A stretch of DNA of 62,585 nucleotides from Nitrospirota bacterium (GTDB lineage Bacteria > Nitrospirota > Thermodesulfovibrionia > Thermodesulfovibrionales > SM23-35): contig JACUUX010000002.1 of NCBI GenBank assembly GCA_014859105.1, forward strand, positions 98,118 to 160,702, given 5' to 3'. Position numbers and translations under genes: made by a program. Numbering within the stretch: position 1 is the stretch's first letter; each line of letters begins with the position of its first letter. Below are positions 299 to 43,481 of the stretch, in pieces. A model generated the notes under the pieces. That model saw only the letters and a list, made by a program, of their open reading frames with translations, did no database searches and was not told the DNA's origin.

Positions 299-1126
299 TC
301 AACTTAAATCGCCCAGTAAAAACTGCACAAGTGTTACTGCCGCAATTGCAGCAGTCTCAGCCATCAAAATCCTCCTGCCAAGAGATGTAATAAGGAGGCC
401 TTTATCTTTTGCAAAAGCAACTTCTTGCTTTGTGAAGCCACCCTCCGGGCCGATGGAAATATATAATCCCCCCTGCCCCCCTTTACTAAAGGGGGGTAAG
501 GGGGGCTTTGAAAAAAGGGGGGCAGGGGGGTTATATGATTGTTTTATAATCTTGACAGCATCGGATAACCGCATCCCTTCCTCTTCATAAAAAATAAAAC
601 CACCACCCTTACTTCCCCCCTTGGTAAAGGTGGACAGAGGGGTGTAGTTCTCATATGCCTGAGTAGAGAAAATATTTTTGAACTCAGCTACTTCATGAAT
701 AACCGGCACAACACTTCTTCCTGATTGTCTTGATGCTTCTTCAGCTATCTTTCTCCATCGAACGAGCTTTTTAGTCTCTCTCAATTGACTTCTCTCGGTA
801 ATAACAGGCACTATTTCTTTGACCCCGAGTTCAGTTGTTTTTTGAACAACCATATCCATCTTTTCACCTTTGAGGAGACTTTGCACAAGGGTAATGTTGA
901 GATGTGACTCAAGGTTACAGGAAAATTTTTCTATAACTTCAGTGATTATTTCTCTTCTGTCAGCCTTTACTATCGTTGTTTTGAAACACTTACCCGTTCC
1001 ATCGAAGATAGTTAAGCTATCACCTTTTCGGCATCTAAGGACAGATCTGAGATAATGCGCTTTCTCAGCGGTGATTGATATTCTATTATTCAATAAAGGA
1101 GAGGCCGGAAGGTATATCCTATGCAT
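299..1126 (-). CDS. rsmE: RsmE, 16S rRNA m3U1498 methyltransferase (repeat-expanded)
   Basis: 275 aa. RsmE is a SPOUT-class SAM-dependent enzyme that methylates N3 of U1498 in 16S rRNA. The N-terminal PUA-like part (H-Y-L-R-S-V-L-R, about residues 24-32) is followed by the SPOUT core with KTTELGV and ERSQ. The trefoil knot carries ISIGPEGGFT near residue 225 and ends LGRRILMAETA. The protein is about 30 residues longer than usual. The excess sits in two places rich in P, K and G (about residues 164-176 and 199-218), encoded by C/G-tract palindromes at 604-646 and 463-535. Both inserts keep frame and leave the GPEGG knot intact. It lies downstream of dnaJ on the same strand, so it probably belongs to the tail of the heat-shock operon. 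Confidence 0.93.
   Translation of the reverse strand: MHRIYLPASPLLNNRISITAEKAHYLRSVLRCRKGDSLTIFDGTGKCFKTTIVKADRREIITEVIEKFSCNLESHLNITLVQSLLKGEKMDMVVQKTTELGVKEIVPVITERSQLRETKKLVRWRKIAEEASRQSGRSVVPVIHEVAEFKNIFSTQAYENYTPLSTFTKGGSKGGGFIFYEEEGMRLSDAVKIIKQSYNPPAPLFSKPPLPPFSKGGQGGLYISIGPEGGFTKQEVAFAKDKGLLITSLGRRILMAETAAIAAVTLVQFLLGDLS
463..535. repeat. Palindromic C/G-tract element inside rsmE (copy 1)
   Basis: The arms are of the form TAATCCCCCCTGCCCCCC and its complement, enclosing CTTTACTAAAGGGGGG and AAGGGGGG. The structure would fold into a strong hairpin. On the minus strand it is read in frame as NPPAP-LFSKPPLPPFSKGG-QGG, immediately before the SPOUT knot of RsmE. The same core recurs at 604-646, 10827-10860 and 43215-43262. 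Confidence 0.8.
604..646. repeat. Palindromic C/G-tract element inside rsmE (copy 2)
   Basis: CACCCTTACTTCCCCCCTTG is followed by GTAAAGGTGGACAGAGGGGTG, a degenerate copy of the element at 463-535. Read on the minus strand it encodes TPLSTFTKGGSKGGG within RsmE. It is more diverged than copy 1, which suggests an older insertion. Confidence 0.7.
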
Positions 1127-1198
1127 TATTTTTTATCCAAAAATGCAATTTAATGATAACTGCATAAAAATGTCCTATTCCATGATAGTTTCCTTATC

Positions 1199-1259
1199 TG
1201 TCACTCCCGCTTGTCGGGAGTCCATCTTGAAGAAAGATTCCGGACAAGCCGGAATGACA
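1199..1259. repeat. Dispersed TGTCATTCC-type palindromic repeat
   Basis: TGTCACTCCCGCTTGTCGGG opens the unit and GGACAAGCCGGAATGACA closes it in inverted orientation. It fills most of the gap between dnaJ and rsmE. Related units lie at 10647-10747, 10794-10888, 18887-18947, 26838-26926 and 43532-43608. Confidence 0.8.
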
Positions 1260-1295
1260 AAATTGCAATCAAGATAGAACATTCTTTTACAGGTC

Positions 1296-10620: not shown

Positions 10621-10928
10621 TTCATAGCGAACTCTGTTCCAATAGGTGTCATTCCCGTGTGTCGGGAATCTTTTTTTAAGATTCCGAACCGATCCCCGAC
10701 TATGCGGGGACAAGAGTCGGAAGGATGCCGGACAAGCCGGCATGACAAAAAACCAAACCAAAGATCTTAAAAGTTGTTTAAGTTTTTCAATTCTGTCATT
10801 CTGGCTTGTCCAGAATCTTTCTTTGAACAACCCCCTAACCCCCTTTACTAAGGGGGATTCAGAAGGATTCCCGACACACGGGAATGACGGGTTAACGTAT
10901 CAACCATTGGAACGGAGTTCGCTATGAA
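10621..10928. repeat. 308-bp composite inverted repeat
   Basis: The outer arms of 23 nt (TTCATAGCGAACTCTGTTCC... at 10621-10643 and its complement at 10906-10928) differ at one base. Inside are two complete TGTCATTCC-type palindromes, 10647-10747 and 10794-10888. The first arm of one (GTCATTCCCGTGTGTCGGGA) pairs perfectly with the last arm of the other. A copy of the CCCCCTTTACTAAGGGGG element lies at 10827-10860. No gene is seen between the acetyltransferase and the membrane protein; the gap is wholly repeat. Confidence 0.85.
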
Positions 10929-42746: not shown

Positions 42747-43481
42747 TTATCTCCTGGCCCCAAATATCGCTCTGCCTATTCTAACCATGGTTGCGCCTTC
42801 CAGGATTGCAACCTCGAAATCATTTGTCATTCCCATGGAAAGTTCCGGCAGTTTATATCCAAGCCTCTCGGCTTTGTCTCTCAATTCCCTCAATTCTATA
42901 AAATAAGGCCTTGCTTTTTCAGGGTCATCAAAGAATTGAGGCATGGTCATCAGGCCTTCAAGCTTCAGGTTTTCCATATTAGATACAGCTTTAATTAAAT
43001 CCATAAGTTTTTCTTTCGAAATGCCATGCTTCGTCTCCTCTTCCGAGAGTTTTACCTGTATCAAAACCCGCTGTGTTTTTCCTTCTCTTTCGGCATATTT
43101 ATTTATCAATTCTGCGATATCGGCCGAATCAATTGTCTGTATCATATCAAAAAGCTGCACCGCTGTCTTCGCCTTGTTTTTCTGAAGGTATCCGATCAGG
43201 TGCCATTCAAGCTCAAATCCCCCCCACCCCCCTTTATTAAAAGTGGGCGGGAGGGGATTAATTTGAGATTTGAGATTTGAGATTTTCTCTTTTGCCTCCT
43301 GGACCCTGTTTTCTCCAAATATTCTCAAGCCTAAATCTATGGCTTCCATTATTCTTTCGGAAATAACCGTCTTTGTAACAGCAACAAGTTTTACATCAAA
43401 AGGGCTCCTTCCAGATCTTATTGCAGCAGAGGATATCCTTCTGTATAAGTTTTTTATATTTTCGAGAAGCCTGGTATCCAT
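42747..43481 (-). CDS. yggS: YggS, PLP homeostasis protein (repeat-expanded)
   Basis: 244 aa. A PLP-binding barrel with no enzymatic activity found, acting in vitamin B6 and amino-acid homeostasis. [20 protein letters not shown] has the PLP-lysine, and [28 protein letters not shown] and [20 protein letters not shown] follow. The segment [20 protein letters not shown] (about residues 69-88) is absent from relatives. It is encoded by three tandem ATTTGAG copies and a C/G-tract palindrome (43215-43281). It is inserted exactly between two conserved blocks. Confidence 0.93.
43215..43281. repeat. C/G-tract palindrome plus ATTTGAG tandem repeat inside yggS
   Basis: AATCCCCCCCACCCCCCTTT then ATTAAAAGTGGGCGGGAGGGG form a hairpin of the same family as 463-535. 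Three exact 7-bp ATTTGAG units follow at 43261-43281. Together they add about 22 codons without shifting frame. Confidence 0.8.

Follow-up and report, generated by a model that had tools for sequence, protein, structure and literature searches.

A short palindromic DNA element is found in frame within the rsmE gene of a Nitrospirota bacterium and recurs in many unrelated genes of the same genome. We consider it probable (roughly 0.8) that the family consists of non-autonomous palindromic mobile elements, which would be moved in trans, be selected for reading frame and survive as near-neutral inserts in protein loops. The window, that is the whole stretch of DNA that was analysed, is 62,585 nucleotides long, and rsmE is its first minus-strand gene. 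Copies were scored with a covariance model, R1, built from 22 aligned copies. The features of the rsmE region are as follows.

299-1126, minus strand: rsmE, encoding the 16S rRNA m3U1498 methyltransferase (ORF, 275 aa), host of both insertions
463-510, unstranded: pristine full palindrome, AAT C6 TG C6 TTTACTAAA G6 TAA G6 (R1 model and inverted repeats)
511-534, unstranded: third half arm, which gives a three-arm form and reads NPPAPLFS (inverted pair I1, 17 nt, 100%)
600-647, unstranded: decayed relic reading NYTPLSTFTKGGSKGGG, frame kept (R1 12.8 bits; diverged insertions at the same site in G013 and G009)

The element at 463-535 is made up of the full palindrome, whose minus-strand reading is KPPLPPFSKGGQGGLY, and the third half arm, in which AAAGGGGGGCAGGGGGG at 514-530 is perfectly complementary to 468-484; a similar three-arm form was seen in another copy of the same genome (L002). 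In the search of the window this element scored 69.7 bits (E 9e-20), and its RNA fold of -43.1 kcal/mol (z -4.9) was equalled by none of 200 shuffles. Element copies in other host genes gave fold z values of -3.3 and -4.3. The initial annotation had described two hairpins, at 463-535 and 604-646, lying wholly in the rsmE frame and encoding the same type of peptide just ahead of the catalytic knot. It can be seen that, first, both segments do lie wholly in the frame, and 463-535 is a strong palindrome, but the other is no significant hairpin: the segment 600-647 gave a fold z of -0.46 with 60 of 200 shuffles as good, and an R1 E value of 0.1 in the search of the window. We call this segment a decayed copy because orthologs in two other genera have a NYPP..PL.KG..KG insertion at the same place. 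Secondly, the larger insert encodes exactly PPLPPFSKGGQGG, but the smaller one reads TPLSTFTKGGSKGG. Thirdly, only the larger insert, which is nearer the C-terminus, stands directly ahead of the IGPEGG knot motif, while the smaller one is placed one strand and one helix upstream of it. Finally, the added length, put at about 30 residues, comes to 35, as judged by the 240-aa protein of a relative with neither insert (L032/G014).

The host protein otherwise appears to be an ordinary RsmE. It contains the Pfam domains PF04452 and PF20260, and the NCBIfam equivalog NF008692 covers residues 1-274 with a score above its cut-off. An AlphaFold model computed from 12 sequences had a mean pLDDT of 81.7, and its best Foldseek matches were solved RsmE structures. 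Values below 50 were confined to residues 162-174, 200-212 and 214-218, which are the two inserts. The fold is thus predicted to be intact, with both inserts as low-confidence loops. Elsewhere in the protein, residue 255, within the RIL(R)AETA motif of the SPOUT knot, is Met, and all 11 of the other aligned orthologs show Arg at this position; a change of activity is possible on the strength of this substitution.

Beyond rsmE, the unit is about 45 bp long and has the form AAT-C6-(2/3 nt)-C6-TTTANTAAA-G6-(2/3 nt)-G6-ATT, usually with one additional base. It corresponds to 15 codons with the typical reading NPPxPPxxKGGxGG[FLI]. A genome-wide search for the motif and a count of its coding fraction had been proposed along with the initial description. 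The search found 56 distinct places in the 3.16-Mb genome (R1, E<1e-3), so that the family is multi-copy and RsmE is one of many hosts; at 45 of the 56 the copy lies ten codons or more inside an ORF of at least 100 aa, with an open frame throughout. The proposed likeness to Rickettsia palindromic elements is borne out to the extent that the sequences place the family in frame in about 45 genes. Among about 30 host genes scanned for protein families, most match a conserved one. The hosts include chorismate synthase (aroC), carbamoyl-phosphate synthase (carB), FGAM synthase (purL), DapF, TruB, DnaX, MutL, SMC, FPP (farnesyl-diphosphate) synthase, a PrmC-type methyltransferase, QueC, uracil-DNA glycosylase, a P-type ATPase, KDO transferase, class III and class I/II aminotransferases, a glycosyltransferase 9 fusion, a NuoG-like protein, NAD(P)H-hydrate dehydratase and a PilM/PilN-type protein. 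In AroC, CarB, FGAM synthase, DapF, TruB, DnaX, MutL, SMC, FPP synthase, the PrmC-type protein and QueC, full domain or equivalog matches span the insert; in FPP synthase and MutL the family match breaks at the element and resumes beyond it. A composite element (PESPHTPLWKRGAEGDFKGGMGGF) is present in frame in mutL (L070:3144-4922), and G001 and G013 have the same composite type at aroC. Assembly artefact was considered and rejected, since in-frame copies interrupt single genes in many independent MAGs. The window itself holds a second copy, which adjoins a tandem repeat.

43214-43261, unstranded: second window copy, in frame in a YggS-family PLP-enzyme gene (ORF 42747-43481, minus strand; R1 41.8 bits)
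43261-43285, unstranded: 7-bp tandem repeat (ATTTGAG)n, immediately next to the second window copy

The YggS-family host matches TIGR00044 over residues 7-243.

The intragenic rate is close to that of random 48-mers from the same regions, 78% of which lie equally deep inside ORFs (coding statistics are from 416 kb of regions, mostly centred on elements and 87% covered by long ORFs), and insertion therefore seems to be blind to genes. Gene-breaking copies were not evident in the sampled 416 kb. If only one third of in-gene insertions survived, 54% of copies would be expected to be intragenic, and the probability of at least 45 of 56 would be 5e-5; with survival of two thirds, the probability is 0.07. 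The element might also be removed from the mRNA in an intron-like manner, or bypassed by the ribosome at the hairpin, so that the proteins would be normal. The very stable predicted mRNA hairpin and the nature of the hosts, which are core enzymes, would suit such a process. However, the intragenic copies, decayed ones included, keep an open frame, which would be needless if they were skipped, and the RsmE inserts are predicted to form flexible loops that the fold can accommodate. Removal or bypass therefore seems very improbable, and translation of near-neutral inserts is preferred.

Matches to the element are widespread and patchy. Among 61 related genomes 37 have matches (E<1e-5), very unevenly distributed: there are dozens in several genera of the family and none in others of the order. 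At E<1e-8, matches were found in 35 of 118 Nitrospirota genomes, some of them outside the class, and in 24 of 99 genomes of a second phylum, that of a Desulfobacterales MAG. The element had first been placed in a lineage different from that of Rickettsia; Nitrospirota is indeed such a lineage, but the family is not confined to it. Eight genomes of other lineages that have rsmE relatives contained the element in none. Spread by phage is unsupported, an exact core match being found in just two viral contigs. These data bear on the idea that template switching and slippage produced the segments on the spot, within C/G-rich loops, with no mobile element involved. Neighbouring 7-bp tandem repeats and the rapid replacement of whole loops between congeners speak for a local origin. 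Against it, unrelated genes, genomes and phyla have in common one consensus, including the AAT...ATT ends and the TTTANTAAA centre, and this requires copying from a common source. We therefore give local origin only a slight chance and return to mobile copies as the preferred explanation.

Comparison of orthologs provides a more direct view of mobility. Among aligned RsmE orthologs of the same family and order, the larger insert is absent in L032, G009 and G015, and a C/G element is present there in G004 and G013. G016, a congener of G004, is without the RsmE element and keeps the neighbouring GACTGTCCC repeat, which is also found in G004. Alignments revealed orthologs without the insert for AroC and CarB as well. 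In G004, element copies are nested inside other repeats: inside the GACTGTCCC repeat, as between TGTCCCAGATTTACGGACC and AATCGGGACTGTCCCC, and, in another case, in the loop of a different C/G palindrome. At the level of sequence comparison, the orthologs with and without the element, the nested copies and the patchy distribution together show mobility. At the first RsmE site, G009 and G013 have the degenerate insert in common with the RsmE of the window. Since this insert is common to three genera, its insertion most likely predates their split; its palindrome has decayed and the frame is still open. Other repeat families occupy the first RsmE site in frame in G029 (L131) and G032 (L135). The repeats in L135 and L131 are of the RSARNDKSEGARND type and the GTVPDLPP...GVESGLS type. 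The two RsmE loops thus admit insertions of several repeat families.

An opposite reading would be that the PP/KGG segments are ancient conserved loops and that the palindrome is a by-product of PP..KGG..GG codons. The occupation of the two RsmE loops and of the aroC and carB loops in several genera could be taken in this sense. It had been pointed out at the outset that such a loop would be indicated if these residues were found in diverse relatives whose DNA is not palindromic there. Instead, most RsmE orthologs are without these residues; where the residues are present, that loop contains the element, a decayed copy of it or some other repeat family. More generally, the segment is absent from most orthologs, congeners of the carriers included, and the 45-bp sequence recurs across dozens of unrelated genes, in other phyla too. 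Copies in the same slot are also far too similar in DNA for ancient loops: comparing G000 with G004, 42 of 46 aligned positions match at aroC and 43 of 48 at carB (about 90%), versus only about 41% identity at four-fold sites in either gene. An ancient-loop origin thus seems scarcely conceivable. The same figures indicate that the loops have been re-invaded or homogenised by other copies and were not inherited unattended.

Homogenisation leads to another possibility, namely that every slot was filled a single time, in the distant past, and has been kept pristine by gene conversion, not by new transposition. G000 and G004 share the element-bearing loop in aroC, carB and uracil-DNA glycosylase, and the aroC loop is also occupied in G001 and G013 (G000 and G004 have simple copies at this site, G001 and G013 composite ones). 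Moreover, the sequence is homogeneous though synonymous sites are near-saturated. On the other side, the RsmE relic of three genera has escaped homogenisation, G019, a congener of the carrier G001, has an ordinary aroC loop, and tracts of 45 bp are short for efficient homologous recombination. We hold gene conversion as the sole source of pristine copies to be unlikely, with a minor chance left to it, and favour continuing transposition. No target-site duplication was visible in the flanks of the elements, and no flank motif was found there beyond the AAT/ATT ends. The G004/G016 pairs offered no clean empty site, the unoccupied loop usually holding a different repeat. At L178:1968, L180:605 and L164:2279, the flanks are nearly identical to those in L233, L234 and L235 of G016, with a completely different repeat in the loop. 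Such swaps between G004 and G016 suggest, as far as sequence comparison can tell, a fast turnover of surface loops.

In the scheme that we propose, a Y1/HUH enzyme of the REP-associated (RAYT) type would most likely mobilise the element in trans, with a single-stranded hairpin as the moving form. As a best guess, and as the weakest part of the scheme, we infer a RAYT-type transposase because the element is palindromic, target duplication is not evident and RAYT-like genes are present in the genome. A 332-aa protein scored 77.8 bits against the NCBI REP_Tyr_transpos model, whose cut-off is 80. Counts of elements and of Y1_Tnp matches over the 61 genomes gave a Spearman coefficient of 0.55, with kinship ignored; the model matches G043 at 22 places although that genome gave no Y1_Tnp match, and G056 has seven Y1_Tnp matches and no element. 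No element was found beside the RAYT-like genes examined in L156-L158, and 4 kb around the RAYT-like gene in L156 gave no R1 match. Both L084 and L082 have a Y1_Tnp match some 3 kb from an element, with no evident link between the two. After insertion, copies whose length is not a multiple of three or whose frame is not open would be purged, a selection suggested by a record that is all in frame. Insertions tolerated in surface loops would persist as near-neutral disordered inserts, to which the predicted RsmE model and the intact host families point. The same permissive loops would then be re-invaded or homogenised repeatedly by other copies. RsmE might represent both stages, one loop with an old, decayed insertion and the next with a recent, pristine one.

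Rickettsia palindromic elements (RPE) are the closest parallel. They are about 100-150 bp long, nearly half of them lie in coding genes, in frame and at solvent-exposed positions, and the Rickettsia guanylate kinase is translated and active with its palindromic insert (PMC10969869, PMC3767692, PMC2229807). RPE, especially RPE-1 to RPE-3, and the present family are alike as dispersed hairpin repeats in frame in conserved genes, and RPE also comprise several families with possible hot-spot loops (PMC10969869, PMC2229807, PMC3767692). In contrast to RPE, the unit here is about 45 bp with C6/G6 tracts and adjoining 7-bp tandem repeats, about 80% of the copies are intragenic compared with about half, and the carriers are environmental Nitrospirota and members of another phylum, whereas those of RPE are obligate intracellular Rickettsiales. 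The element is not an RPE by length or by host lineage, as set against the published RPE descriptions. With REP/REPIN sequences it has in common short hairpins, many copies, no visible target-site duplication and RAYT-like genes in the genome. REPs lie mainly outside genes and for the most part belong to GTAG- or CGTC-tagged superfamilies (PMC3733652). By contrast, 45 of 56 copies here are intragenic, no element flanks the RAYT-like gene in L156, and a GTAG or CGTC tag was not evident in the flanks, whose composition shows only the AAT/ATT ends. The elements are thus not REPs by placement or tag. Bacterial MITEs (ERIC, Correia and Yersinia palindromic sequences) are likewise non-autonomous palindromic repeats, some of them fused in frame with genes (PMC2229807). 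Unlike them, the present unit is less than half the size and lies in genes as a rule; no target-site duplication was visible in the flanks, and no parent insertion sequence came to light. Cyanobacterial small dispersed repeats are very small and mobile, and those genomes are also known for heptanucleotide tandem repeats; by this description they resemble the present family in both respects. In the open-access literature, with most subscription papers outside it, no earlier report of the family was found, including by its peptide and core DNA strings. Selfish palindromes within genes have until now been regarded as peculiar to Rickettsia, a genus whose life is obligately intracellular and whose genome is decaying. 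The present, smaller family behaves likewise in environmental bacteria of two phyla, in genes for replication, repair and core biosynthesis, so that whether mobile DNA seeds protein loops becomes testable by comparison of many genomes. Annotators of proteins from these groups should note that a PPxPPxxKGGxGG segment is probably a translated mobile element.

The codon phase of the copies is strongly biased. In two genomes, where an intragenic copy could be read without a stop either as NPP or as IPP, the frame in use is NPP in 29 copies and IPP in 2 (binomial P 5e-7, the copies being perhaps not fully independent). This bias does not follow from random insertion combined with selection against stop codons, and because the NPP and IPP peptides are similar, selection on peptide composition is no obvious cause. 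A reading frame inherited with the slot would fit it, which is a further point for gene conversion. The sampled regions contain 18 exact tandem arrays with periods between 4 and 12; of these, 17 have period 7, and 7 of the 17 lie within 40 bp of an element, compared with 0.45 expected from random placement in the same regions. Examples are found at 43261-43285 of the window and at L163:2217-2239, L166:2021-2045, L176:2078-2097 and L178:1950-1969; several of the arrays appear to be translated inside host genes. Neutral transposition alone would be insufficient if the 29:2 bias, the reuse of the same loops across genera and the loop swaps between congeners are taken together. A bolder and doubtful proposal is that the unit is a coding-adapted cassette of 15 codons, whose insertion or spread would be tied to codon phase by an undescribed targeting or slot-copying process, and which may, together with the 7-bp repeats, keep rewriting housekeeping proteins at their surface loops, in two phyla or more.

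A related repeat lies outside the coding hosts.

10827-10871, unstranded: related short C/G palindrome in a multi-copy, apparently intergenic repeat (R1 22.2 bits, about 13 places in the genome)

An Rfam scan of the window gave no match. The surrounding repeat, about 250-300 bp long at window positions 10646-10927, contains ATTCCCG hairpins (CAAAGATCTTAAAAG...TTCGCTATGAATT) and has about 13 copies in the genome, apparently intergenic; the C/G palindrome in its middle is nearly identical to the element. A hairpin repeat, GTCACTCCCGCTTGTCGGGAGTC...GACAAGCCGGAATGACA, at window positions 1196-1260 between rsmE and dnaJ resembles the hairpins at 10646-10927.
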